The notes beneath the pieces are model-generated. The model ran no database searches and had not been told where the DNA came from. It worked only from the letters and a program-made list of their open reading frames with translations. A stretch of 21,825 bases of DNA from IMG/VR virus record IMGVR_UViG_3300035698_013312, positions 1 through 21,825 of that record, one strand, 5' to 3'. Below are positions 1,161-13,309 of the stretch, piece by piece. This stretch comes from a virus. Each line of letters starts with the position of its first letter. Position 1 is the stretch's first letter. A program made the translations under genes and the position numbers.

Positions 1161-1175
1161 TTGGCTCGTAAAAAT

Positions 1176-2039
1176 ATGTTATTAATTACAGGCGATCAAG
1201 GTTTCATCGGAACACATTTAAAAAAGCATTGTAAGAAATTAAATATTCCTTATGTTGGGTATGATCTTATTAATGGTCAAGATATAAGGGATCAAAGAAA
1301 ACTCGATAAATTTTTTGAAGAGAATCAAATTACGGAAGTAATTCACTTGGCGGCGTTGGCAGGTGTTCGAAGTGGAAATGAATATCCGGAAGAATATATT
1401 TCAACAAATATTTTAGGGACTTGGAATGTAGTAAAAATGGCAGAGAAGCACGATGTAAAAGTATTGATCAATTATTCAAGTTCATCTGTTTACGGAAATG
1501 GAAAACCGCCAATTGAAGAAGCTGATCCGCAAAATCCGATAAGTTTGTATGGTATAACAAAATTAGCAGGTGAGAAAATAGTAAGCAATTCAACAATTCA
1601 AGGAACGATTTCAGTAATACCATTTACAGTCTATGGAGAGGACGGACGGAAAGACGAAGTTATTTATCGGTGGTTAGAACAATATAAAAACGGAAAGCCT
1701 ATTACAGTTTATGGAAATGGAGAATCATGTAGAAGTTATATTTATGTAAAGGACATTGTTCAAGCAACAATTGAATTATTGTATATCCAGAAAAAGGTTT
1801 TTAATTTCAAGATAAATTTAGGGGGTAGTGAGATCATAAAACTAAAACAATTAATATCTATTTTTAAAGATAATATAAACGACATTAAAATTGATAATCA
1901 ATTAATGCCGGATACTGATATATATGAAAATTATTCCGATTGTACTTTTGCAAAAAAATTAATTGATTTTGATCCAAAACCTCAATTTGAAAAAATAGTA
2001 AAAAAGATAATTAAAAAAGAACTAAAAAAATCATTATGA
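1176..2039 (+). CDS. NAD-dependent sugar-nucleotide epimerase/dehydratase (extended SDR)
   Basis: A 287-residue protein of the extended short-chain dehydrogenase/reductase family, which epimerises or dehydrates nucleotide sugars in the cytoplasm. The N-terminus holds the dinucleotide motif TGDQGFIG. Then come HLAALAGV (the usual HLAA segment), SSSVYG with the catalytic Ser, and Y125-x3-K129 in LYGITKLAGEK. The substrate part includes a VYGNGES-RSYIYVKD stretch typical of GalE/RmlB-like enzymes. A TTG at 1161 would add five residues, but that codon lies at the end of the inverted repeat. The ATG at 1176 has the local 'aaaatATG' context and places the nucleotide-binding strand at the very start, so I chose it. 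It overlaps the next gene by 4 nt (ATGA). The exact sugar is not determinable. Confidence 0.88.
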   Translation: MLLITGDQGFIGTHLKKHCKKLNIPYVGYDLINGQDIRDQRKLDKFFEENQITEVIHLAALAGVRSGNEYPEEYISTNILGTWNVVKMAEKHDVKVLINYSSSSVYGNGKPPIEEADPQNPISLYGITKLAGEKIVSNSTIQGTISVIPFTVYGEDGRKDEVIYRWLEQYKNGKPITVYGNGESCRSYIYVKDIVQATIELLYIQKKVFNFKINLGGSEIIKLKQLISIFKDNINDIKIDNQLMPDTDIYENYSDCTFAKKLIDFDPKPQFEKIVKKIIKKELKKSL

Positions 2040-2896
2040 CAAATCAAGAAGATAAAAAACCATTAATTGGAATGATCGGTACAGGTTGGATTGGATCAAA
2101 TTTAGCACAAGATTTTGAAGAGCGTTGTTATACAGTTATCAGATATGATCTTGAAGAGAATGAAAACAATGAAGAGAAAATCAAGGAATGTGATATTGTA
2201 TTTATTGCAGTTCCAACGCCAAGCACCCCAGAGGGATTTGACTATTCAATAGTTGAATCTGTTTTAAAGTTTATTGGAGAAGATAAGATAGCAGTAATCA
2301 AATCAACAGTTTTGCCTGGTACAACGGAAGCATTGCAGAGAAGTTTTCCACATGTATATTTAATGCATAGTCCGGAGTTTTTGACGGAGAAGACAGCAAG
2401 AGAAGATGTTAAAAATCCGGCACGAAACATAATCGGTTATACAAATAAGTCAATAGACAGGACGCAGGAAGTCATGAATGTTTTACCGTCAGCACCATAT
2501 CAAAAAACTATGAGATCAGGGGAAGCAGAGTTATTGAAATATGCCGGTAATATTTGGTTTTATTGGAAAGTTATTTATGTGAATATGCTTTATGATTTAT
2601 CAAATTCATTAAATATTGATTACGATATAGTTAAGGACGCAATGAAAGCCGATAATCGAATTGGTGGAACACATCTTGAAGCAATACATCAAGGAGGGCG
2701 TGGAGCAGGTGGTCATTGCTTCATAAAAGATATGAGTGCATTTTTCGAATTGTATGAAGAGAAATGCACAGATGATGATTTGGGACTAGCTATTTTATCA
2801 GATTTGCAAAATAAGAATGTAGAGTTATTGAGCCACACAGAAAAAGACAAGGATTTATTGAATGGAGTATATGGAGAAAATTATAAAATAAAATAA
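2036..2896 (+). CDS. UDP-glucose/GDP-mannose 6-dehydrogenase homologue lacking the C-terminal domain
   Basis: The family oxidises a nucleotide sugar twice to a uronate with NAD. Residues 15-20 (GTGWIG) are the NAD motif. KSTVLPGTTEAL, PEFLTEKTAREDVKNP and EAELLKYAGN are family motifs. C228 in GAGGHCFIKD corresponds to the catalytic cysteine of the usual GxCxPKD. The protein stops about 58 residues later, at 286 residues, whereas the family is usually above 400 and carries a C-terminal UDP-binding domain. That domain is absent, and no remnant is seen downstream, where the next gene starts 4 nt after the stop. The enzyme may be a phage-minimised variant, may act on another substrate, or may be inactive. 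Translational coupling with the epimerase is likely (ATGA overlap). Confidence 0.85.
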   Translation: MTNQEDKKPLIGMIGTGWIGSNLAQDFEERCYTVIRYDLEENENNEEKIKECDIVFIAVPTPSTPEGFDYSIVESVLKFIGEDKIAVIKSTVLPGTTEALQRSFPHVYLMHSPEFLTEKTAREDVKNPARNIIGYTNKSIDRTQEVMNVLPSAPYQKTMRSGEAELLKYAGNIWFYWKVIYVNMLYDLSNSLNIDYDIVKDAMKADNRIGGTHLEAIHQGGRGAGGHCFIKDMSAFFELYEEKCTDDDLGLAILSDLQNKNVELLSHTEKDKDLLNGVYGENYKIK

Positions 2897-2900
2897 ATTT

Positions 2901-4433
2901 ATGAAAACCTTAATCATAGCAGATGTTGATTGTTGGGCTATCGGAAAATTATCACAGGCGATAGCTAGATATTCCAATACTGAAACAAGGATAATATATG
3001 TACACCCCCGAGACGCTGAAAAGGGCTCAGAGATAGCGAGAGTAGAAAATGAATTACTCAAATTCAAACCGACTGTTGTTCATTTCCAATATTGGAATAC
3101 AGCACAGAAATTAATAAAAGCTATTCCACAATTAAAAGAAATAAAAACAGTTTTGACACATCATAATCAAAAAAATACATGTTCAGAAGATTGGAACAAA
3201 TTAGGGATTAATTATCATATTGTTCACACAAAAAAGAATTATGAAAAATTAATAGAAAAAGGTTATCGAAAAGAAAAAATACAGATTATTCAGCATGGGA
3301 TTAATTTGGATTTTTTTGAATATAATCAAGAGTTGCCGACAGAAGATAAGATGTTTGGATATATAGGACGAGTTTGTCCTTGGAAAGGAATGAAAGAAAT
3401 ATTACAAGCGTCATGCGAAATTGGTTTCCCCTTATTATTTATGGGGAAAGTTGATAAGGTTGATTATTGGTCCAGTATTCCGGAATCAGACAAATCAAAT
3501 TTATATACTCAATTCATGGAGTGCAAAGATAGTGAGAGAAGAGAAGCGATAAAATGTATGAATGTTTATGTCGGAAATTCAAATGACGGAAGAGAAGAAG
3601 GAACGCTTGGATTATTGGAAGCAATGGCGTGTGGAATCCCAGTAGTTACAACTCCAAGTGGAGAAGCAGAAGATATATGTAAAAACGAACACAATGCTTT
3701 AGTCGTACCATTTGGAGATTATAAAGCATTAAAAGAAGCCATGAAAAGATTAATGTACGATGAGGATCTTGCAAATAAATTAAGGTCAAATGCTTGGAAC
3801 ACTGTTAAGAATATGACTGAGAAAAAAATGTCTTTAGAATATCAGAGAATGTATAAAAAACTTAATGGGGGTAATAGTGTTTTAGTCAGTGTGATAATTC
3901 CATATACACCAGAGCAAGAAGAATTAAAAAATAGAGTAATTGAAGCATACGAAGAACAGACATACAGAAATATAGAATTAATCTTGTATAATGACGATCA
4001 GCAAGGTTATAATCTAGCAGAAGTAAGAAACAAAGCAGTGATTGAAGCAGACGGAGAATTGTTAGTATTTAATGATGTACGGATTTTACCTAGCAAAACA
4101 GCAGTAGAACAATTTGTAGTTGAATATGAAAAAGATCGTCATCGGTTGTGTTGGTTTTTTGGCAATAAGGACGAAGCAAACAAAACAAATTTTGTAGAAA
4201 ATTTCAGTGCTATTAGAAGAAATTTTTTTATAGGTTCAGGAATGTGTTGCGAAAGGATAAAACAATATGGTGGAATGAGCCAAGAATTAAGAAGTCGATT
4301 TAGTAATCAGATATGTGATTTTCAATTTTGTCCGGACATACATGCAACTACACAAAAAAAGAGTGGGAAATCTATTTCAAGAAGAAAAGATATAATAGAA
4401 TCAAAGTATTTATTATTTAAAATGGGATTATAA
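2901..4433 (+). CDS. Bifunctional-looking glycosyltransferase: GT4 domain fused to GT2-like domain
   Basis: A 510-residue protein with two modules. Residues about 1-320 form a GT-B retaining glycosyltransferase of the GT4 type: MFGYIGRVCPWKGMKEIL is the start of the C-terminal Rossmann half, and EEGTLGLLEAMACGIPVV (from about 231) is the donor-binding E-x7-E segment. Residues about 328-510 look like a GT2 (GT-A) domain: SVIIPYT, then NLAEVRNKAVIEADGELLVFND. In GT2 enzymes the last segment usually ends in DDD or DxD, but here it is NDV. The later GGF.E..ED motif is also eroded (GGMSQELRSRFSNQICDF). The second domain may be catalytically weak or only structural. It probably transfers activated sugars made by the preceding enzymes. 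Confidence 0.85.
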   Translation: MKTLIIADVDCWAIGKLSQAIARYSNTETRIIYVHPRDAEKGSEIARVENELLKFKPTVVHFQYWNTAQKLIKAIPQLKEIKTVLTHHNQKNTCSEDWNKLGINYHIVHTKKNYEKLIEKGYRKEKIQIIQHGINLDFFEYNQELPTEDKMFGYIGRVCPWKGMKEILQASCEIGFPLLFMGKVDKVDYWSSIPESDKSNLYTQFMECKDSERREAIKCMNVYVGNSNDGREEGTLGLLEAMACGIPVVTTPSGEAEDICKNEHNALVVPFGDYKALKEAMKRLMYDEDLANKLRSNAWNTVKNMTEKKMSLEYQRMYKKLNGGNSVLVSVIIPYTPEQEELKNRVIEAYEEQTYRNIELILYNDDQQGYNLAEVRNKAVIEADGELLVFNDVRILPSKTAVEQFVVEYEKDRHRLCWFFGNKDEANKTNFVENFSAIRRNFFIGSGMCCERIKQYGGMSQELRSRFSNQICDFQFCPDIHATTQKKSGKSISRRKDIIESKYLLFKMGL

Positions 4434-4434
4434 T

Positions 4435-4575
4435 ATGAAAGAAGTTTTTGAACCAATAATATGTATGTTGATAGCAAATATTTTTATGTGGCTTTCAATT
4501 GGAACAATATTTTGGTATATATTCTTGCTTTTTTTTGTAGTATCTTTACTTTGGTTTTTATATAAATTAAAATAA
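4435..4575 (+). CDS. Tiny two-helix membrane protein
   Basis: A 46-residue protein starting one base after the glycosyltransferase stop (TAA-T-ATG). It is almost entirely hydrophobic: segment 1 covers about residues 8-22 and segment 2 about 25-43 (WYIFLLFFVVSLLWF), with a short Lys tail. Its tight placement between two glycosyltransferase genes suggests it is a real co-transcribed gene. It may anchor the soluble glycosyltransferases at the membrane, but that is inference from position. No homologue is recognised. Confidence 0.55.
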   Translation: MKEVFEPIICMLIANIFMWLSIGTIFWYIFLLFFVVSLLWFLYKLK

Positions 4576-4581
4576 AAATAT

Positions 4582-5604
4582 ATGAAAAAATTAAAAGCGT
4601 TCAATCACCCATGGCATTTGGGCAACCAATATGAAATAATGAAAACCCCAGAGATCGAGTGGGATTGGTTGATTAATACAAGACGGAGATTTGGAGAATT
4701 GCCGAGAGGTAATATGGTTCAGCAGTTTGGTATTAATTGGGTTACCCATTATGAAAAAGGAAAATATGATTTTGCTTTACTACATTTCGATCAACAATGT
4801 TTTGAACCGAAGTTATGGTCAAGGGGAAAAGGAAGCATGTTCAGAGAATTGAATGAAGTAATTAAAGATATTCCAAAAATAGTTATTTGTCATGGTACAC
4901 CATATTATCCGGAAAAATATCCGGCAAAAAATAAGCATGGATTGGATTGTGACGGAATAAGCCAAGAATTGATTGATATAGCGAAAGAAGCAACAAGGGG
5001 TTGTTATGTTATCATGAACAGTCATAGAGCGTCGGAACAGTGGGGTTTTGGAACTCCTATCTGGCATGGTATGGATAAGGACGAATGGTTTGATCGACCG
5101 AAAGAGCCAAGAGTAGTTACAATGTTATCTCCGGCAGGGTTAGATAAATATTATGATCGAGCATTTTTAACAGCTATAAGAGAAAATTTAGCAGAGCATG
5201 GAATCCAACATTGTCATATTACAGTTGATTGGAGTGCTAATAATTGGGAGCAGTACAGGGAATATTTAGGACGAAGCTTAGTTTATCTTAATCCAACCTT
5301 AGAAAGTCCCATGCCTAGATCAAGAACAGAAGCAATGCTATCTGGTTGTTGTGTAATTACTACACCACATCAAGACGCAGATAAATTCATAATTGACGGA
5401 GAGAATGGTTATATAATTAAAGAGAGAAATCCACAAGCAGTTACGAAGAAAATAATTGAATTGTTAAAAGATTATAAGCAGACAGTAGCAGTAGGACAAG
5501 CAGGAAAGAAAACAGCACAAAATCTTTTCAGTACAAAAGTATTTACAACTAATTGGAGAAAGTTTGTTGATCATGCAATAGAAGATTTTAATAGTAAAAA
5601 ATAA
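4582..5604 (+). CDS. GT4-like glycosyltransferase
   Basis: A 340-residue, GT-B fold glycosyltransferase. The N-terminal half includes KIVICHGTPYYPEKYP, and CYVIMNSHRASEQWGFGTPIWHGMD is the linker region where GT4 enzymes read '…S…G…I.HG.D'. The C-terminal half has SRTEAMLSGCCVITTPHQDADKFI, the donor-sugar binding segment with the conserved Glu, followed by NGYII. There is no signal peptide or membrane helix, so it is cytosolic or peripheral. The start is 'aaaaatatATG' without Shine-Dalgarno, 6 nt after the small membrane protein. Donor and acceptor are unknown. Neighbours making modified nucleotide sugars suggest it extends the same glycan. Confidence 0.82.
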   Translation: MKKLKAFNHPWHLGNQYEIMKTPEIEWDWLINTRRRFGELPRGNMVQQFGINWVTHYEKGKYDFALLHFDQQCFEPKLWSRGKGSMFRELNEVIKDIPKIVICHGTPYYPEKYPAKNKHGLDCDGISQELIDIAKEATRGCYVIMNSHRASEQWGFGTPIWHGMDKDEWFDRPKEPRVVTMLSPAGLDKYYDRAFLTAIRENLAEHGIQHCHITVDWSANNWEQYREYLGRSLVYLNPTLESPMPRSRTEAMLSGCCVITTPHQDADKFIIDGENGYIIKERNPQAVTKKIIELLKDYKQTVAVGQAGKKTAQNLFSTKVFTTNWRKFVDHAIEDFNSKK

Positions 5605-5608
5605 AAAT

Positions 5609-6505
5609 ATGAAAGTTGGATTTTTAGGCTTTGATCAATTTCAAGGAAAGTTCAATATTGGCTCTTCACGAATTAGGTGTGATTGGGTTATTAATTATTG
5701 GGACGAAGCAGAGCGATATAAAATGGGAGAGAAATATGACGCTATTATTTTTCAGAAAGCTTATTTTATTGATTACATGAAAGAGTACAAAGGCGTTAAG
5801 ATTCTTGATCTTTGTGATCCGGATTGGCTCGATCTTAATTCAAGGGTAGTTGAAACAATAACAGAAGTTGACGCTATTACATGCTCATCACAAGAGTTAG
5901 TTGATCGAGTAAAAGATTTTACTGATAAGCCTGTTCTTTTGATCCCAGACAGAATTGATTTCAATTTGCATAAAGAAAAAAAGATACATATCAATAAAGC
6001 AGAAACGGTTGTATGGTTTGGATATTCTCACAATTTTGCTGTATTGCATAAAGCAATAAAAGCAGTGATTGATTTGGATCTTGAATTGATAGTAGTTAGT
6101 GATCGAGCATATAATCCTCCGGCAGGACTTGCGATAAAACTTAATTTAACAAATATAGTTTATGATTATGAAACGATTAATAAGGATTTATTGAAAGCTG
6201 ATATGGTTATTAATCCAATATCAAAGTTAGGCAGATTTAAATTCAAGAGTAATAATAAAACCTTAACAGCTTGGTCGTTAGGACTGCCGGTAGCAAATAA
6301 CGATGTAGAAATGAAAAACTTTATTGATCCAATTGAAAGATCGAAAGAAGCAGAGAAAAGATATAAAGAAGTTTTAATAGATTACGATGTTCAAGATAGT
6401 GTGGTTGAATATAAGAAATTAATTGAAACATTAAATAGACCGAAACTTGATATTCTAACAAAGAAAGAATATCACGAAGCAAGCGAACCTATAATAATAA
6501 AATAA
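5609..6505 (+). CDS. Glycosyltransferase-like protein (GT-B fold)
   Basis: A 298-residue protein. The opening MKVGFLGFDQF is a typical first strand, and YDAIIFQKAYFIDYM and KILDLCDPDW fit the N-terminal domain of a GT-B enzyme. ITCSSQELVDRV and VLLIPDRIDF mark the inter-domain region, VVWFGYSHN the first strand of the donor domain, and NNKTLTAWSLGLPVANND the donor-binding helix with the usual Gly-Leu-Pro turn. The canonical E-x7-E is not intact in this last segment, so the donor site is divergent. It lies 4 nt after the preceding gene. The product could be a divergent GT4 enzyme or a non-catalytic homologue. Confidence 0.7.
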   Translation: MKVGFLGFDQFQGKFNIGSSRIRCDWVINYWDEAERYKMGEKYDAIIFQKAYFIDYMKEYKGVKILDLCDPDWLDLNSRVVETITEVDAITCSSQELVDRVKDFTDKPVLLIPDRIDFNLHKEKKIHINKAETVVWFGYSHNFAVLHKAIKAVIDLDLELIVVSDRAYNPPAGLAIKLNLTNIVYDYETINKDLLKADMVINPISKLGRFKFKSNNKTLTAWSLGLPVANNDVEMKNFIDPIERSKEAEKRYKEVLIDYDVQDSVVEYKKLIETLNRPKLDILTKKEYHEASEPIIIK

Positions 6506-6509
6506 TAAT

Positions 6510-6698
6510 ATGGGCTTTAGACCTAGAAAACCAAATATTCCAAATATGAATTGCATTGATTGTGGAGAAACATTAATTACTTCTTCAATATTAAAGAAGC
6601 GTTGTTTTGATTGTAAGAAAAGTTTTAAAGCAGAACGCAAAAAATTACAAAAAGAAAAAAAAATTAATTATGCCAGTGAAATTTCAAAATACGAATAA
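6510..6698 (+). CDS. Small zinc-ribbon protein
   Basis: A 62-residue protein with two CxxC pairs, CIDC at residues 15-18 and CFDC at about 32-35, the spacing of a one-zinc ribbon. A strongly basic helix follows (KSFKAERKKLQKEKK), suitable for nucleic acid contact. It starts 4 nt after the previous stop and overlaps the following nuclease by 29 nt, so it belongs to the same transcript. No specific family was recognised; an RNA/DNA-binding accessory protein is likely. Confidence 0.6.
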   Translation: MGFRPRKPNIPNMNCIDCGETLITSSILKKRCFDCKKSFKAERKKLQKEKKINYASEISKYE

Positions 6699-7017
6699 AT
6701 TCAAGAATGTTCCTCAATGTTATAATAACTATTGCTATCAATCGAAAAAGGAAGCTATGTATGCTTATGAGTTAGATTTGAGAGTGAGAGCAAAAGACAT
6801 TAAGAGTTGGGACAGACAGAAGCAGATTGAATTATATATGTATGATAAGAAGATTTGTAATTACTATATAGATTTTATAATTACTCACAATGACGGAACG
6901 AAAGAATATATCGAGGTGAAAGGTTTCGAGACAAATACTTGGAGATTGAAGTGGAAAATGTTTGAGGGGAAAATGAAAAAAGAAGAGCCAAGAGCAATAT
7001 TAACAATAGTAAGATAA
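6670..7017 (+). CDS. DUF1064-like PD-(D/E)XK nuclease-fold protein
   Basis: A 115-residue protein matching the pattern of phage DUF1064 proteins: KFKNVPQ at the start, then SKKEAMYAYELDLRVRAKDIKSW, and a core with D68 in YYIDFIIT and E82-V-K84 in YIEVKGF. This is the D…ExK arrangement of PD-(D/E)XK nucleases, and E29 in SKKEA could be the helix-1 acid. A longer reading frame from 6607 exists but would start inside the upstream gene with a poly-Lys leader; the ATG at 6670 gives the family-typical N-terminus and local start context. Members are usually encoded among phage replication or packaging genes. Function (Holliday-junction or flap-type nuclease) is inference. Confidence 0.75.
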   Translation: MPVKFQNTNKFKNVPQCYNNYCYQSKKEAMYAYELDLRVRAKDIKSWDRQKQIELYMYDKKICNYYIDFIITHNDGTKEYIEVKGFETNTWRLKWKMFEGKMKKEEPRAILTIVR

Positions 7018-7024
7018 TAAATTT

Positions 7025-7570
7025 ATGAAAATTAGACAAGTTTTAATTGAAGATCTAAAACCGGCAGAATATAATCCTAGACAAATGAATGAGAAGCAGG
7101 TTAAGGATTTGGAAAATAGTATAAGAGAATTTGGGCTAGTTGATCCGATTCTAGTAAACAGCAACGAAGATAGGCACAATGTTATCATAGGTGGTCATCA
7201 GCGTGTCAAAATAGCTTCTAGTTTAGGTTATACCGAAGTGCCGGTCGTATATATCAATTTGACTGAAAAGAAAGAGAGAGAGTTAAATTTGAGGCTCAAC
7301 AAGAATATTGGTAGTTGGGATATGGATTTATTGGCAAGTTTTGAATCGGAAGAATTAATCAGTGTGGGCTTTGATCAGGATTTTTTATCAATATTTCAGG
7401 GAATAGAAGAGAAAGAAATATTGGAAACAAAGGAAGAAGATATAAAGAATTTTAAAAAATCTCATATCTTAATATCATTTCCCCCAAATGAATTTGAATT
7501 AATAAAAGAACACTTGGAAGCCATAATAAAAGTATCTAAAAATATTGAATATGAACAAGCAAGTAATTAA
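7025..7570 (+). CDS. ParB/Spo0J-like N-terminal domain protein
   Basis: A 181-residue protein. Residues 1-100 are a ParB-type nuclease/CTPase-like domain: LKPAEYNPR (NPR at 17-19), ENSIREFGLVDPILV and the central motif GGHQR at 56-60, then LGYTEVPVVYI. The C-terminal third reads HILISFPPNEFELI and ends in EYEQASN, a tail I associate from memory with phage-encoded ParB-like proteins. There is no helix-turn-helix partition domain, so plasmid-style segregation is unlikely. In phages such domains are often fused to or next to DNA methyltransferases, and here the next gene has a methyltransferase fold and overlaps by 20 nt. A role in DNA modification or nicking is plausible. Confidence 0.85.
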   Translation: MKIRQVLIEDLKPAEYNPRQMNEKQVKDLENSIREFGLVDPILVNSNEDRHNVIIGGHQRVKIASSLGYTEVPVVYINLTEKKERELNLRLNKNIGSWDMDLLASFESEELISVGFDQDFLSIFQGIEEKEILETKEEDIKNFKKSHILISFPPNEFELIKEHLEAIIKVSKNIEYEQASN

Positions 7571-8114
7571 AAAAACTGATAACTCTTTTCTGTATGACAA
7601 GATTAAATTAAGATTAGATAATTTACCAGAAAAAAACGAGATAAGGGTTTTGGATTGTTTTGCCGGAAGACAAAAGATATGGGCTGAAATAATATTACGA
7701 TCAGATAAGAAAATACATTATACACCGTTAGAAGAAAGAAATATAAAAGGTAAGATTTATTTGAAAGGAGATAATTTAAAGTATCTAGAAAATCTTGATA
7801 TTGAAAGCTACGATGTTATTGATCTTGATAGTTATGTCGTACCATTTGAACAATTACAAATTATACTGCCAAGAGTAACAAAAGATCAAATTTTATTTAT
7901 TACATTCATTCAAACAATGTATGGTGCATTGAATAAAAAAATGCTCATGCAAATAGGATACACAGAAGAAATGATCAAAAAAATTCCGTCACTATTCAAT
8001 AAGAATGGATTTGATAAATTAAAAAACTATTTATCGCTCCATGGAATATCAACAATAAAATACAAATCTTTTCAGCAAAAGTATTACATAAAATGTTGTG
8101 TGGATAAGATTTAG
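7551..8114 (+). CDS. Small methyltransferase-fold protein (Trm1/TcmP-like signature, function unknown)
   Basis: A 187-residue protein. Residues about 31-39 read RVLDCFAGR, a class I SAM-binding motif I. KIHYTPLEER and IKGKIYLKGDNLKYL follow the usual second and third strands, and YDVIDLDSYVVPFEQL is the motif IV position. Here there is IDLDSY rather than the DPPY/NPPY of DNA adenine methyltransferases, closer to the IDLDP(F/Y)G pattern of Trm1-like tRNA methyltransferases and of some phage three-Cys partner (TcmP-type) proteins. Those resemblances are from memory and weak. I use the ATG at 7551, because the TTG at 7545 only adds two residues. It is coupled to ParB and followed by a separately promoted radical SAM gene. 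Confidence 0.55.
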   Translation: MNKQVIKKTDNSFLYDKIKLRLDNLPEKNEIRVLDCFAGRQKIWAEIILRSDKKIHYTPLEERNIKGKIYLKGDNLKYLENLDIESYDVIDLDSYVVPFEQLQIILPRVTKDQILFITFIQTMYGALNKKMLMQIGYTEEMIKKIPSLFNKNGFDKLKNYLSLHGISTIKYKSFQQKYYIKCCVDKI

Positions 8115-8128
8115 CTAAACTTAGCCAA
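8111..8128 (+). repeat. Direct octamer repeat upstream of promoter (operator-like)
   Basis: TTAGCTAA (8111-8118) and TTAGCCAA (8121-8128) are repeated with a period of exactly 10 bp, one helical turn, just upstream of the -10 element at 8136. The first copy is a perfect palindrome. The position would suit an activator or repressor site for the radical SAM/terminase transcript. The repeat overlaps the last codon of the preceding gene. Confidence 0.4.
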
Positions 8129-8132
8129 GATA

Positions 8133-8152
8133 TGCTATAATTACACTATAAT
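8133..8152 (+). promoter_or_regulatory. Extended -10 promoter (TGCTATAAT) before radical SAM and terminase genes
   Basis: The gap before the radical SAM gene carries TGCTATAAT at 8133-8141, a perfect extended -10, and a second perfect TATAAT at 8147-8152. No good TTGACA-like -35 lies 16-18 bp upstream, as is common for extended -10 promoters. The start codon at 8169 gives a leader of roughly 15-20 nt. It would drive the radical SAM gene and the terminases. Confidence 0.6.
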
Positions 8153-8168
8153 AAGTAATTAAAAAACT

Positions 8169-8966
8169 ATGCCTATTTATGAGCCGAAAGGAAAAGCAAG
8201 GGAATACAGCCCACTTGCATTTAATGTGTATTCTGGTTGTGATCATCAATGCAAATATTGTTATGTAAGAAAAATTGACGAACTTTGTGGAAGAGATTTT
8301 AATAGAGCAGTAAAGCCGACAAAAGATTTGTTGGTAAAATTAAAAAAAGAAGCTCCAAGATTTAAAGGTTGCAAACAAGTATTACTAAGTTTTACCGGAG
8401 ACGCTTATTGCAAGGCAAATGATGAGTACAAGATAACAAGAGAAGTATTAAAAATTTTATTAGAGAATAGAATTGCAGTAGCAATATTAACAAAAGGTGG
8501 AACAAGATGTTTGCAAGATTTAGATATAATCAAACAATTTGGAAAGCATATCAAAATAGGTGCGACTATGGTATTTGATAATGATAAAGATATAAAAGAA
8601 TATGAATCCGGAGCTTCTAAGATTAATGATAGGTTGGAAATGTTGAAAGTTTTGAAAGAAAACAATATTAGTACATGGGTTAGTTTTGAGCCAGTAATAA
8701 AGCCGGAGCAAACATACAAGCTAATTGAATTGACAAAAGATTTTGTAGATGAGTTTAGAGTTGGAAAGATTAATCATTATCAGTATGGTAAAGATATTGA
8801 TTGGTCCGATTTTTTACAAAAAGTTTTATTAAAATTAAGAAAATACAATAAAACAATTTACATAAAAGATGATCTATATGATTTTAATCCTAGCATTGTT
8901 CTAGCGTCAGAAAGAAATAAAGATGATAACCTTGCAAAAAGTTTTCAAGATAGTAAATTGTTCTAG
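8169..8966 (+). CDS. Radical SAM protein (COG1533/SplB-like, CxxxCxxC)
   Basis: A 265-residue protein. C24-x3-C28-x2-C31 in YSGCDHQCKYCYVRK is the [4Fe-4S]/SAM cluster motif. The flanking YSPLAFNVYSGCDHQCKYCY is the pattern of the spore photoproduct lyase-related and phage Gp37/DUF5131-like group. QVLLSFTGDAYCKAND is the following beta-alpha motif, and ISTWVSFEPVIKPEQT is the late barrel strand found in the same group. It lies behind its own promoter and 6 nt before the small terminase gene. Radical SAM enzymes of this class act on nucleic acid lesions or on unknown substrates. No substrate can be assigned. Start context is 'aaaaaactATG'. Confidence 0.85.
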   Translation: MPIYEPKGKAREYSPLAFNVYSGCDHQCKYCYVRKIDELCGRDFNRAVKPTKDLLVKLKKEAPRFKGCKQVLLSFTGDAYCKANDEYKITREVLKILLENRIAVAILTKGGTRCLQDLDIIKQFGKHIKIGATMVFDNDKDIKEYESGASKINDRLEMLKVLKENNISTWVSFEPVIKPEQTYKLIELTKDFVDEFRVGKINHYQYGKDIDWSDFLQKVLLKLRKYNKTIYIKDDLYDFNPSIVLASERNKDDNLAKSFQDSKLF

Positions 8967-8972
8967 TAATTT

Positions 8973-9461
8973 ATGAAAGATTTATCTAAAAAAAAAGGTA
9001 ACTTATCCATACTTGCGGCTTATCAGTTTTTTGCTATCGAGGAAAAATATAAAGGGGTAATGTATAAAGATATATCAAAAAAGATAAATATTAAATACAG
9101 TATCAATGTTCCAGTTACTACTATAAAATGTTGGTTTTGGAAAGGTGGAATATTAACACCAATGTATAGAGATTATGCAGATATAATGATTGACATGGAA
9201 ATAGAAGAAACAAGGGATTTGATAAAGGGTAATTTGAAAAGTGCAGTAAAGGGTTTGGCAATGTCAATATCTGGAAGAGGTAATATGGCACAAGTATCAG
9301 CCTGTAAAGAATTTTTAGATAGAGGATTGGGAAAAGTTAAAGATGAAGTTGATATGAAACATAGTGGATCAATTGCAATTGGTGTGGTGGATATATTGAA
9401 AGCAAAAAATGAATTAGAAAAACAAAATGAACAAGACGCAAAAAATAGTAAGAGCATGTGA
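8973..9461 (+). CDS. terS: Terminase small subunit
   Basis: A 162-residue protein upstream of and overlapping the large terminase by 35 nt. The N-terminal part holds a helix-turn-helix-like segment (YKDISKKINIKYSINVPVTTIKCWFWKGG, about residues 30-58). A helical oligomerisation part then follows, with SACKEFLDRGLGKVKDEVDMKHSGS, a tail resembling many small terminases. The role is recognition of the phage DNA packaging site and regulation of the motor. It is one of few genes here ending in TGA. The assignment rests on position plus this architecture, since sequence motifs in the family are weak. Confidence 0.8.
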   Translation: MKDLSKKKGNLSILAAYQFFAIEEKYKGVMYKDISKKINIKYSINVPVTTIKCWFWKGGILTPMYRDYADIMIDMEIEETRDLIKGNLKSAVKGLAMSISGRGNMAQVSACKEFLDRGLGKVKDEVDMKHSGSIAIGVVDILKAKNELEKQNEQDAKNSKSM

Positions 9462-10785
9462 TGACTTCTATTTTTTTGTGACTGAAATTTTTGCAAAGTC
9501 AGAGAGTTTATTCCCAAATGGTTTTATTGACGGAGAGTATATTGAATTTGTTTGTGAGCAATTGAAAGATAAGAAAACAGCAAGAGTGTCTGCTCGTGAT
9601 CATTTCAAATCAACAGCTTTTTATGCACATTTCATGCACAAACTATTAAATGGTTATGGGAAGAATATTGAAGCACATTATTTTTCATATCAATATAGTT
9701 TGGCAGGTTATCATATAAATAAGATTAAAAAGGCAGTTGCTAGTAATCCTTATTTTTCAGAAATAATTGATAAGAAAAAGAACGCTGAAAGCATAATCAA
9801 ATACACTTGGGACAACAAATCATTCATGACACTTGAACCTCATGGATTGTTAGAGTTTAAGCGTGGTATTCATGCACCATTGATTTATGTAGATGATCCA
9901 TTTCAAGATCCGAGTAATAAAATGATTTTGACATTAATTACCAAGATCAACACAATTTTTAAAGCACAAATTCTTGACATGGCAATGGACGAATTGCATG
10001 TCTGTGGTACACCTCAAACGAATGAGGATTTTTTCTTTGATAAAAAAGTAATGCAAAGATTTAATGTTTCAATATTACCGGCAATTAAAGACGAGATTAA
10101 TAAGATAGCATTATTTCCAGAGTGGATGAGTTATGAAGAATTGATGATCCGGAAATCAGAGAAGGGAGAGAAGTTATTTAAACAGGAATATTTATGTTCT
10201 CCAACTTATGCCGAAGAAGCGTTTATCAATAAAGATGTTTTATATTCTCTAGTAAATAAAGATTTGGAAAATAAAAGTCATTTCAAACAGTATGAAACTG
10301 AAAATGATGTTATCGGTGGATTTGATATAGGAAAGAAAGCACATCCGAGTCATCTAACATTATTTGAAATTGTAAATGGAAAAAGAATCAATATACACCA
10401 AAAGTTCATGGATAATTGGGATTATGTTGATCAATTAGCATATTTAACAACAGCTATTGAGAATTTTGGAATCACTGAATTGTATTATGATAACACAAGG
10501 GGAGAGTTTGAAAGTTTTGCAGAGCAGAATTTATTGCCACTAGAAATGAAACCAGTTGTCTTTATGGTAAAAACGAAACAATCTATGGCAGTTCAACTCG
10601 ATCGAGCGTTATCCACAGGTAACATAGAATTTTTGAATGATAGGCGATATTTAGAACAATTACTATTAGTCACAAACGATTTACAAGCTATTGAAACCCC
10701 AGAGGGTCATGCAGATAGTTTTTGGAGCGTAGCAATGACATTTAAATATGAAGAGAATCCACAGCCGATAATAACACTACTATAA
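9427..10785 (+). CDS. terL: Terminase large subunit (packaging ATPase and nuclease)
   Basis: A 452-residue two-domain motor protein. The ATPase has a Walker A-like SARDHFKST at 55-63, a Walker B of IYVDD at 153-157 and a coupling motif CGTPQ at 193-197. The RNase H-like nuclease carries three acids: D300 (GGFDIG), D355 (YYDNTRGE) and D430 (GHADSFW). The length is normal and the frame is intact. It starts within the small subunit gene and its stop overlaps the next start (TAATG). It translocates DNA into the prohead and cuts the concatemer. A perfect DnaA box happens to lie in its coding sequence at 10609-10617. Confidence 0.95.
   Translation: MNKTQKIVRACDDFYFFVTEIFAKSESLFPNGFIDGEYIEFVCEQLKDKKTARVSARDHFKSTAFYAHFMHKLLNGYGKNIEAHYFSYQYSLAGYHINKIKKAVASNPYFSEIIDKKKNAESIIKYTWDNKSFMTLEPHGLLEFKRGIHAPLIYVDDPFQDPSNKMILTLITKINTIFKAQILDMAMDELHVCGTPQTNEDFFFDKKVMQRFNVSILPAIKDEINKIALFPEWMSYEELMIRKSEKGEKLFKQEYLCSPTYAEEAFINKDVLYSLVNKDLENKSHFKQYETENDVIGGFDIGKKAHPSHLTLFEIVNGKRINIHQKFMDNWDYVDQLAYLTTAIENFGITELYYDNTRGEFESFAEQNLLPLEMKPVVFMVKTKQSMAVQLDRALSTGNIEFLNDRRYLEQLLLVTNDLQAIETPEGHADSFWSVAMTFKYEENPQPIITLL
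10609..10617 (+). promoter_or_regulatory. DnaA box (TTATCCACA) inside terL
   Basis: This is a perfect match to the consensus 9-mer, within codons for Leu-Ser-Thr. It may be chance, but two more perfect copies occur 386 and 407 bp downstream. Confidence 0.35.
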
Positions 10786-10985
10786 TGAATGGAATTGTTT
10801 TACATTGCCCTAGTAATAATTGCCGGAAGCTTCTCATGAAAGAAGTAATTTTAATGCCTGGTACATCTTTTATATTCAAATGTTATTATTGTGGAACAAT
10901 GTTAAAAATAAAAGCATTGAATAGATCAATTGAAATAGAGAATTTAGATAAGGAAAAACCAGAAGATAGCTTTACAATCCTGTAA
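10785..10985 (+). CDS. Com-like zinc-ribbon protein
   Basis: A 66-residue protein sharing one base with the terL stop (TAATG), so translationally coupled. The cysteines are C8-x5-C13 (CPSNNC) and C33-x2-C36 (CYYC). The order 'C…C-RKLL…I-x-C-x-x-C-G-T' matches the layout of the Mu Com family of small zinc proteins, which bind RNA to control translation of the mom DNA-modification gene. I see the layout but not a specific match, so any RNA-binding role is inference. It is the last gene before the terminator at 10991-11031. Confidence 0.6.
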   Translation: MNGIVLHCPSNNCRKLLMKEVILMPGTSFIFKCYYCGTMLKIKALNRSIEIENLDKEKPEDSFTIL

Positions 10986-10994
10986 AACATAAAG

Positions 10995-11003
10995 TTATCC
11001 ACA
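10995..11003 (+). promoter_or_regulatory. DnaA box, perfect consensus (left arm)
   Basis: The sequence is TTATCCACA. Together with the reverse copy at 11016-11024 it forms an inverted pair, 21 bp between starts, about two helical turns. Confidence 0.55.
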
Positions 11004-11015
11004 AGATATTTTACA

Positions 11016-11024
11016 TGTGGATAA
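11016..11024 (-). promoter_or_regulatory. DnaA box, perfect consensus (right arm, inverted)
   Basis: The + strand reads TGTGGATAA, the reverse complement of TTATCCACA. It lies just upstream of the extended -10 at 11031-11039, where a -35 region would be expected. Confidence 0.55.
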
Positions 11025-11030
11025 CTTTTT

Positions 11031-11039
11031 TGTTATATT
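11031..11039 (+). promoter_or_regulatory. Extended -10 promoter candidate (TGTTATATT) for the structural operon
   Basis: A TGn-TATATT element directly follows the terminator. No -35 match is seen. Expected start of transcription is near 11046, giving a leader of about 85 nt that contains the short ORF at 11076 and the second terminator. The upstream terminator insulates it from the terminase transcript. Confidence 0.45.
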
Positions 11040-11075
11040 GAAAGTAGAGAATTTAACAATTCATTGATAGGAACT

Positions 11076-11135
11076 ATGCGTGTCCTTGATGTAGTTGAAC
11101 TATGTGCGTCAATAAGACGCTATTTTTTTTTATGA
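11076..11135 (+). CDS. 19-codon leader peptide ORF overlapping the portal start
   Basis: The ATG at 11076 stands in 'gaactATG', the same start style as five other genes here (662, 875, 8169, 16165, 18280). It encodes MRVLDVVELCASIRRYFFL and stops at TGA 11133-11135, which overlaps the portal ATG at 11132 (ATGA). The ORF runs through the whole terminator hairpin at 11106-11131. A ribosome on it would cover the hairpin, the geometry of translation-dependent antitermination. A near-repeat of the start region (11071-11084 against 11097-11110, 12 of 14 identical) provides a second ATG at 11102, in frame with the portal. The peptide has not been recognised in any family. Confidence 0.5.
   Translation: MRVLDVVELCASIRRYFFL
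11106..11131 (+). terminator. Intrinsic terminator immediately before the portal ATG (attenuator-like)
   Basis: GCGTC (11106-11110), loop AATAA, GACGC (11116-11120), then TA and nine T's (11123-11131). It abuts the portal ATG at 11132, so there is no space for a promoter behind it. Transcripts must pass through it to express the structural genes. The stem is only 5 bp but has four G-C pairs and a long U tract. Confidence 0.65.
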
Positions 11136-13309
11136 AAATCAATTATAACAACATAACAAAAAGACAAAACGAATTAATACAAGACAGTATTAAGCCAGTA
11201 GTAAAGCAAAAGGGGGTTGGATTTAGTGATATTATTGAGAGAAGACAATTACCGAACGAAGCCTATCCATTGACAAAAACTTCTGAATATTTAAGATCTG
11301 CTTTAGGGTGGGTCTATTCTTGTGTCAGCGTTATATCAGATGAAATCGGTAATATTGATTTAACTTTATATCAACAGAAAAAAAATGATATTGAAATCGT
11401 AAGAGATCATGACGCTTTGAAAGTTCTATATCGAGCAAACAACTTCACAACAAAGTTTGATATGTTTTATCAGATCCAAACATATCTTGAATTGACAGGA
11501 GAAGCCCCTGTTTTGCTTCTAAGGAACAATTCAGTAGTAACTGATCTATTGCTATTAAGACCGGATTTATTGACTGTAATACCCGGTAAAACTCAATATA
11601 TAGAGGGATATAAATATAAAGTAGGAATGAATGAAACAGTAAAATTAGAAGCAAAAGATGTTTTATTTATTAAATACCCAGATCCGGTCAATATATTCAG
11701 GGGAAAAGGAACACTCCAAGCGGCAGCCAAAACAGTTGATATAGATAATTTTTCAGAAGATTATAACAGAAATTTCTTTTATAATTCAGCAATGCCGGGA
11801 AGTATCTTGAAAACTGAACAAAAATTAACCAAAACAACAAAAGATTATCTAAAATCACATATAGATAAGTTGTATAAGGGAATTAATAAAGCACACCAAG
11901 CAATTGTTCTTGAACAGGGACTAGATTGGAAGCCAATGCAAGTCAGCCAAAAAGACATGGATTTTCTTAATCAACAGAAATTTAGCAGAGATAAGATTCT
12001 TGGAATATTCAGAGTACCTAGAACAGTTTTAGGAATTACCGATGATGTGAATAGAGCAAATGCAGAAGCAACTGATTATGTATTTGCACGAAGAACAACC
12101 AAACCGAAAATGCAAAGACTTGTTGAACAGTTGAATGAATTTTATTTACCACAATTTGAAGGAACTGAAAATATGTTTTTTAATTTTGCAGATCCAGTAC
12201 CAGAAAATGAAGACTTGAAATTGAAGAGATATGACAACGGATTCAAGAATGGTTGGTTGACTATAAATGATATAAGAAAAGATGACGGTTTGCATGGTAT
12301 AGGAGCAGACGGAGATAAGATCTATTTACCATTGAATTTACAGCAAGTTCTTAATGTTAAAAAACAGACGAAATCAGCAACTCCAAAAAATATTATTCTC
12401 ATGGCAAGAAATAGAAAAGCTGATACAATCAAGGCAAAGGAACTTGATTTGCAGGATAGTATACGAAACAAAATTTCTCCAATTATTAAAACATTAATAG
12501 ATAAACAGAAAAAAAAAACAGTAAAAAAGGAACAAGAGCGTGAAACAGATAAAAAAATATATCATGATTGGCTTGATACAAAAATAGTAAAAGTAGATAA
12601 ATTGGAAGCTGAATTTGCAAGAAGACAATTGAAACTATTTAAAATTCAAGAAAAAGAAATATTATCAATCATGCCAAGTAAGGGGATTAATGAAGATTTG
12701 AAAAAATGGAAACTTGATCCGAAGAAAGAAGTGAAGCGTGGTTCGAAAGAATTTAAGCCGGTATTAGAAGAAACTATTATAGAGGGAAGCAAGGACGGAT
12801 ATGAATTAATAGGAATGAGTGATGTAATTGATGTTAGTAATCCAGATGTTCAGAAATATCTTGAAGATGATATGAGTAAATTCTTGACTGCAACAACTGA
12901 AACAACAAATGTAAGGATTGGGAAAACTTTATCAGAGGGCGTAGAACTTGGAGAATCAATCCCCCAGTTGCGAACAAGAGTACAAGAGTTGTTTGTTGGA
13001 ATGGCAAAGAGTAGAGCTGAAACTATTGCAAGATCCGAAGTAATCCGAGCCAGTAATTGGACAACAGAAAAAGCATATATTGATAGTGGAGTAGTAGAGG
13101 GAAAGATTTGGCTAACAGCAATGGACGAAAGAGTTTGTGAGTTTTGCCAACCAATGGACGGAAAAGAATTAGGTCTTGGAGAAGCATATTTTGAAGAGGG
13201 TTCAACAATTACAGGATCAGACGGTGGAAAATTACCAGCAGACTATGAAACTATTGAAAGACCTCCACTCCATGCAAGGTGTAGATGTACAATAATTCCA
13301 AAAGTTTAA
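11132..13309 (+). CDS. Phage portal protein fused to a MuF-type head morphogenesis domain
   Basis: A 725-residue protein. Residues about 10-430 are an HK97-family portal: SALGWVYSCVSVISDEIGNI, DVLFIKYPDP, an RDKILGIFRVPRTVLGI clip/stem region and YVFARRTTKPKMQRL. Residues about 440-560 are a long charged helical linker. Residues about 570-725 are a MuF/SPP1 gp7-type domain: ETIARSEVIRASNW, then CEFCQPMDGKEL (C669) and PPLHARCRCTII at the end. The portal forms the dodecameric vertex for DNA entry; MuF domains lie inside the head. Most phages encode the two separately. An in-frame ATG at 11102 would add MCVNKTLFFF, encoded by the terminator. Either start may be used: 11102 has the better local start context, 11132 the more usual N-terminus. 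Confidence 0.92.
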   Translation: MKINYNNITKRQNELIQDSIKPVVKQKGVGFSDIIERRQLPNEAYPLTKTSEYLRSALGWVYSCVSVISDEIGNIDLTLYQQKKNDIEIVRDHDALKVLYRANNFTTKFDMFYQIQTYLELTGEAPVLLLRNNSVVTDLLLLRPDLLTVIPGKTQYIEGYKYKVGMNETVKLEAKDVLFIKYPDPVNIFRGKGTLQAAAKTVDIDNFSEDYNRNFFYNSAMPGSILKTEQKLTKTTKDYLKSHIDKLYKGINKAHQAIVLEQGLDWKPMQVSQKDMDFLNQQKFSRDKILGIFRVPRTVLGITDDVNRANAEATDYVFARRTTKPKMQRLVEQLNEFYLPQFEGTENMFFNFADPVPENEDLKLKRYDNGFKNGWLTINDIRKDDGLHGIGADGDKIYLPLNLQQVLNVKKQTKSATPKNIILMARNRKADTIKAKELDLQDSIRNKISPIIKTLIDKQKKKTVKKEQERETDKKIYHDWLDTKIVKVDKLEAEFARRQLKLFKIQEKEILSIMPSKGINEDLKKWKLDPKKEVKRGSKEFKPVLEETIIEGSKDGYELIGMSDVIDVSNPDVQKYLEDDMSKFLTATTETTNVRIGKTLSEGVELGESIPQLRTRVQELFVGMAKSRAETIARSEVIRASNWTTEKAYIDSGVVEGKIWLTAMDERVCEFCQPMDGKELGLGEAYFEEGSTITGSDGGKLPADYETIERPPLHARCRCTIIPKV

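Follow-up and report, generated by a model that had tools for sequence, protein, structure and literature searches.

The window analysed here, a virus record from IMG/VR of 21,825 nt in its entirety, raises the question of how transcription enters a phage head operon when an intrinsic terminator lies directly in front of its first gene. That gene (11132–13309, plus strand) encodes a fusion of portal protein (PF04860, E 4e-68) and Mu F-like domain (PF04233, E 6e-14) and follows the terminase large subunit gene (TerL; 9427–10785, plus strand; PHROG 38, E 4e-10), a small gene for a Com-like zinc ribbon, and a stretch at 10986–11131 that comparison of sequences indicates is a real, conserved regulatory leader. 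A sequence-only reading had described an attenuator-like leader in which ribosomes on a short ORF control the terminator. The regulatory leader, its terminator and the conservation of the layout stand, whereas translation of the leader ORF is not conserved. The locus is most likely an antitermination switch under the control of the Com-like protein, and as such would be a variant of known antitermination; that a small RNA-binding protein relieves the leader terminator and thereby switches on the head operon is considered reasonably probable.

The nearest annotated phages show no DNA match to the window, only distant matches, and in GBK2 and Silence the TerL and portal genes are adjacent without a leader. 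Just 5' of the packaging genes, the window carries a radical SAM protein (PF04055; 8169–8966) near a ParB-like gene (7025–7570). The genes at 1161–6505, also 5' of the packaging genes, are putatively assigned, by eye, to glycosyltransferase-like and nucleotide-sugar functions, and the same putative sugar genes recur in that place in L009, L010 and many portal relatives. Shine-Dalgarno sequences are nearly absent at gene starts in the window (mostly above -3 kcal/mol), which have A/T-rich tracts in front instead.

Architecture of the leader

Two hairpins and a promoter-like site lie in the leader, all on the plus strand. The upstream hairpin (10991–11031), recovered by folding and a motif scan, has a 13-bp stem (10991–11028) followed by six T's and is probably the terminator of the TerL-com operon; its stem contains two perfect DnaA boxes in inverted orientation (TTATCCACA; 10995–11003 and 11016–11024). 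It is stronger than the terminator next to the portal. Between the two hairpins sits a sigma-70-type promoter-like site (11010–11039), TTTACA-18-TATATT with an extended -10, which was identified by a motif scan and comparison with relatives, where stronger promoters occur at the matching relative place. Neither the upstream hairpin nor the promoter-like site was listed in the sequence-only reading. Transcription is predicted to start near 11046, and a leader RNA of ~85 nt is predicted to extend from the promoter to the T-run (11046–11131).

The leader terminator (11106–11131, plus strand) has the form GCGUC-AAUAA-GACGC followed by U9. Its stem, GCGTC/GACGC at 11106–11120, is only 5 bp long (fold -7.4 kcal/mol); the nine T's occupy 11123–11131 and the portal ATG comes next at 11132. 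This stem and T-run had been noticed in the sequence-only reading and were recovered independently by a terminator scan. The other features picked out in the same reading are likewise present as described: a tandem near-repeat, an ATG at 11102 that shares the reading frame of the portal, and a short plus-strand ORF (11076–11135; MRVLDVVELCASIRRYFFL) that overlaps the portal start as ATGA. An Rfam scan of the window gave no match above the gathering score.

Conservation of the promoter-terminator layout

Relatives were collected with a two-sequence terminase profile, which returned 24 viral contigs and one contig of a metagenome-assembled genome (MAG), and with a portal profile search, from which the best 80 of 483 relatives were taken; the window and its portal relatives form a set of 78 leaders. 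A DNA pattern of the core was rejected as a search tool, finding two contigs only, and the portal profiles recovered the remainder. One relative comes from a MAG classed as gammaproteobacterial, on a short contig that is possibly misbinned. TerL of the relatives is 40–63% identical to that of the window. In L009, L010, L012 and L032, TerL is separated from the portal by a small cysteine-rich gene, a promoter, and then a hairpin with a T-run. The small gene is frame-broken in L010, where frames are broken in the terminase (4983–6360), the Com-like gene (6362–6560) and the portal (6589–8836), perhaps through assembly errors.

Of the 78 leaders, 56 have a terminator no more than 100 nt from the portal ATG, compared with 43 of 390 shuffles (11%) and 8 of 273 other gene starts scanned in the same contigs (Fisher 7e-38). 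Among these 56 terminator-bearing leaders, 41 have a promoter upstream of the terminator in which 10 or more of 12 positions match, against 7.7% of shuffles, and 25 have one with 11 or more matches, against 0.6%. The shared layout is thus a promoter, an RNA of ~45–150 nt, a terminator and the portal; the U-run is retained while its distance to the ATG ranges from about 7 to 23 nt, and neither the length of the RNA nor its sequence outside the hairpins is conserved. In a small held-out set of 26 mostly distant loci, a terminator was found in 10, against 10% of shuffles. It had been argued from the window that no promoter fits behind the terminator, and this arrangement proves to be kept in dozens of relatives. 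Since the terminator abuts the portal, leaves no room for a promoter and is kept in this layout so widely, read-through would be the way into the head operon. A portal start kept without hairpin or leader, which speaks against the earlier reading, was found for L008 (TerL 46% identical, portal 4 nt after TerL), which lies at a larger distance, and such cases are confined to phages beyond the cassette-bearing clade. With the portal directly following the terminase in L008 and several others, not every relative has the leader.

A covarying hairpin that overlaps the terminator

The near-repeat (11071–11084 and 11097–11110) is a small hairpin in two copies, with the pattern NN(A)C-YANGNGN-GN'N' (motif A), and this motif occurs at these two sites only in the entire window. 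Copy 1 (GGAACUAUGCGUGUCC; 11070–11085, plus strand) has a bulged A and a C-G closing pair, and copy 2 (GAACUAUGUGCGUC; 11097–11110, plus strand) ends in five bases (11106–11110) that form the 5' arm of the leader terminator; both were defined by motif and covariation. When pairing is not required, the loop pattern AC-YANGNGNG is found in 16 copies in 11 window-type leaders, a density ~165 times the background. The flanks are complementary in all 16 leader copies but in only 10 of 67 background copies. Across the 16 copies, 95.3% of cells are paired, with two-sided changes at three of the four pairs and a C-G closing pair throughout; none of 500 shuffles reached the paired-cell percentage or the covariation score, and slid-pairing controls gave 23–44% paired. 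The motif definitions used here and below were derived from the same data as most of the tests. The sequence-only reading had taken the near-repeat as a source of two start choices, but L154 has ACTACG and CTAAGT rather than ATGs at the equivalent positions, and two copies of a conserved, covarying RNA hairpin explain it better.

The last copy of motif A overlaps the terminator by 3–13 nt in 11 of 11 leaders. In the window, the overlap (5 nt, 11106–11110) was read from the coordinates, as the automatic search chose the upstream DnaA-box hairpin. Hairpin 2 and the terminator are therefore mutually exclusive in the sequence. By itself hairpin 2 is unstable (+2.3 kcal/mol, against -7.4 kcal/mol for the terminator), so that it would need a stabilizing partner to shift the equilibrium in its favour. 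With the terminator's 5' arm taken up by hairpin 2, binding of such a partner would block termination.

Small upstream genes and matching hairpin types

The small gene ahead of the window leader (10785–10985, plus strand) encodes a four-cysteine zinc ribbon of 66 aa. Its assignment as Com-like draws on profile comparison with Mu Com, a match of an orthologue to PF10122 and an AF2 model. A profile of its family (A4) aligns with Mu Com in hhalign at a probability of 90.5 and E 1.3e-6, a remote resemblance. The L162/L012 orthologue, one of eight members, matches PF10122 at E 9.7e-5 with 22.2 bits, just below the 22.9 cut-off, and a Pfam search with the window protein by itself gave no match to Com. 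The AF2 model is mostly beta (mean pLDDT 83.7). The product is proposed to be an RNA-binding antiterminator. Searches of phage records with the small proteins returned no match.

Three kinds of small upstream gene occur among the relatives: the Com-like type, a second zinc-ribbon type (YIWHCP...) related to it, and a DUF2292-like type, for which the best match to PF10055 has E 4.5e-9 and 7 of 16 members match. Under fixed motif definitions, protein type and hairpin type correspond. Motif A is present in 9 of 9 leaders of the Com-like class; at least two copies of motif B (loop UYANGR) are present in 17 of 20 leaders of the second zinc-ribbon class; and motif C, a pentaloop hairpin, is present in 10 of 21 leaders, or half, of the DUF2292 class. 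No motif crosses classes except for one single B match in class C, at the shuffle rate. Motif B is paired in 35 of 51 copies, against 6% in the background.

Several leaders show these hairpins in characteristic arrangements. In L168, L171, L175, L179, L182 and L193–L198, two to three tandem hairpins with UUACGA, UUAAGG or UCAAGG hexaloops lie 5' of the portal; these loops resemble the CUGCGA loop of mom RNA and adjoin a different zinc-ribbon gene. In L202, L209, L210, L212, L226 and L227, a DUF2292-like gene is followed by a pentaloop hairpin of 3–4 bp and then directly by the terminator. These pentaloop hairpins covary (CGG/CCG, UGG/CCA), and other members of the DUF2292 class seem to have a looser version.

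Class partly follows descent, since the portal tree requires four class changes among 56 rows, and the match between protein and hairpin is partly explained by shared descent because the small gene adjoins the leader; leader and small gene may move together. The held-out locus L273 carries motif A although it lies among DUF2292 phages in the portal tree, and its upstream ORF has four cysteines. Homology of this ORF to Com could not be demonstrated, and L273 is therefore not counted as proof.

DnaA boxes beside the leader promoter

The DnaA box TTATCCACA is found 14 times in the 300-nt regions 5' of portals (22.6 kb), where shuffles predict 0.2. Elsewhere, there are 3 in 30 kb of other non-ORF DNA (Fisher 0.001 for the enrichment 5' of portals over this fraction) and 13 in 626 kb of ORFs. 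The boxes often lie close upstream of the leader promoter. Besides the window, the carriers are L154, L164, L172, L178, L179, L182, L191, L196, L210, L212, L224 and L226. It is possible that they link replication to late transcription. The double DnaA-box hairpin of the window was considered as the main feature and rejected; because it is missing from L010, L032 and L009, it is not the conserved core. The underlying palindrome, an inverted GTTATCCACA-N-TGTGGATAAC pair, is common in viral contigs (L033–L119), with preferred spacers of 6 and 13–17 nt.

Relationship to known systems

In phage Mu, Com activates expression by binding the loop of a hairpin that is closed by a C-G pair and that adjoins and partly overlaps an inhibitory structure (PMC6483171). 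The Mu com/mom system and the window share a four-cysteine zinc ribbon, a small C-G-closed hairpin, more than one copy of the motif, and partial overlap of the hairpin with an inhibitory structure 5' of a phage gene (PMC6483171). In the window, however, the role of that structure falls to an intrinsic terminator, the head operon takes the place of mom as target, and the com-like gene precedes the promoter without overlapping its target gene, unlike in Mu com/mom. The loop in Mu is six bases long and includes a critical GA, whereas here it is seven bases long, with GA in 9 of 16 copies and in neither window copy. With this difference from the six-base GA loop, the window system is not filed as Com/mom, though it may work alike. 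A counterpoint to the parallel is that Mu Com acts on translation rather than termination, and that its resemblance to the window protein is remote.

Other leader-based systems share parts of the arrangement. Attenuators of the trp type also place a leader terminator before an operon, though a conserved leader peptide was not found here. In the BglG/SacY/LicT family, a protein-stabilized RAT hairpin has some of its bases in common with a terminator's 5' arm, as the hairpin here does in 11 of 11 leaders. Protein binding is proposed for the window, and the adjacent protein is a 66-aa zinc ribbon rather than a BglG-type protein, with phage late genes as targets. Small hairpins in phage leader RNA are also known from lambda N/boxB and HK022 put, and hairpin-protein pairs differ between phages; RNA-only put requires no protein. 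The mechanism proposed here differs from both in being a refolding at one terminator. Lambda Q is loaded at a pause near the promoter by way of a DNA element, whereas the proposed site here is an RNA hairpin and the proposed read-through is local. The order of promoter, terminator and late genes without a further promoter is the same in both, the late promoter pR' being followed by a leader terminator, tR', that has to be overridden for the late genes (PMC7171158).

Alternative explanations

The earlier proposal, that ribosomes translating ORF 11076–11135 cover the terminator and then reinitiate on the portal, now seems very improbable. In its favour are the ATGA overlap and an SD-like AGGA ahead of the ORF; the SD match of this 'excellent local start' is indeed among the two best in the window (-6.3 kcal/mol), but SD strength is uninformative here because the other genes of this phage are almost without SDs. 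A GTG ORF likewise ends at +4 in L032. Conservation of the ORF was nevertheless rejected: no terminator-crossing ORF exists in L155, L156 (on the same contig as L009) or L161, and elsewhere its start, frame and stop differ. What is conserved, through compensatory changes, is base pairs rather than a peptide, and the ORF is judged not to be the conserved element. An unlikely, though less remote, explanation is translational control of the Mu com/mom type, with a protein opening a hairpin at the portal start and termination secondary or absent. The Com precedent points that way, as does the position of the window hairpin, 11 nt 5' of a start codon without an SD. Yet the start codon is not within the stem, the U-run is kept although its distance to the ATG varies, and the close upstream promoter of most leaders implies a short transcription unit.

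That unit could also be a trans-acting RNA with its own promoter and terminator, such as an analogue of the phi29 packaging RNA, and it does lie beside the packaging genes as a promoter- and terminator-flanked RNA of 45–150 nt. The variable length and sequence outside the hairpins and the tracking of hairpin type with the adjacent small protein argue against this, and the portal mRNA would still have to pass the terminator; a literature search on packaging RNA found nothing for this gene order. This explanation is improbable, and so, to a similar degree, is one in which the small protein represses or times the head operon by stabilizing termination or blocking elongation. Binding to the leader would be equally compatible with repression, but hairpin 2 cannot coexist with the terminator, and the precedent of the Com family is activation.

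Proposed switch and its significance

In the antitermination switch favoured here, the promoter at 11010–11039 would give rise to a short transcript, terminated at 11106–11131 just before the portal, in which a single kind of small hairpin is present twice. Both copies would be bound by the Com-like zinc ribbon, which on hairpin 2 would prevent the terminator from forming, so that RNA polymerase continues through the portal gene and the rest of the head operon. An influence on translation from the start codon nearby may contribute. The sequence comparisons cover the conservation of promoter, hairpin, terminator and small gene, as well as the matching of protein and hairpin types; from these we infer binding of the hairpins by the protein, with read-through rather than repression as the result.

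More tentatively, many tailed phages with this portal type may turn on head-gene expression with a small protein of their own, which is DUF2292 or a zinc ribbon of the Com-like or the second type, together with a matching hairpin that is often tandem and overlaps or abuts the leader terminator. The leader promoter in such phages often has a DnaA box, and late genes could in this way be coupled to replication. Such an arrangement of swappable hairpins and proteins was not found in the literature searched. If this reading is correct, late-gene control in a large, mostly uncultured phage group would depend on swappable RNA-hairpin/protein pairs. It would also provide a function for the phage DUF2292 and Com-like proteins, whose functions are unknown or little known, and would offer new compact RNA-protein pairs for genetic tools.
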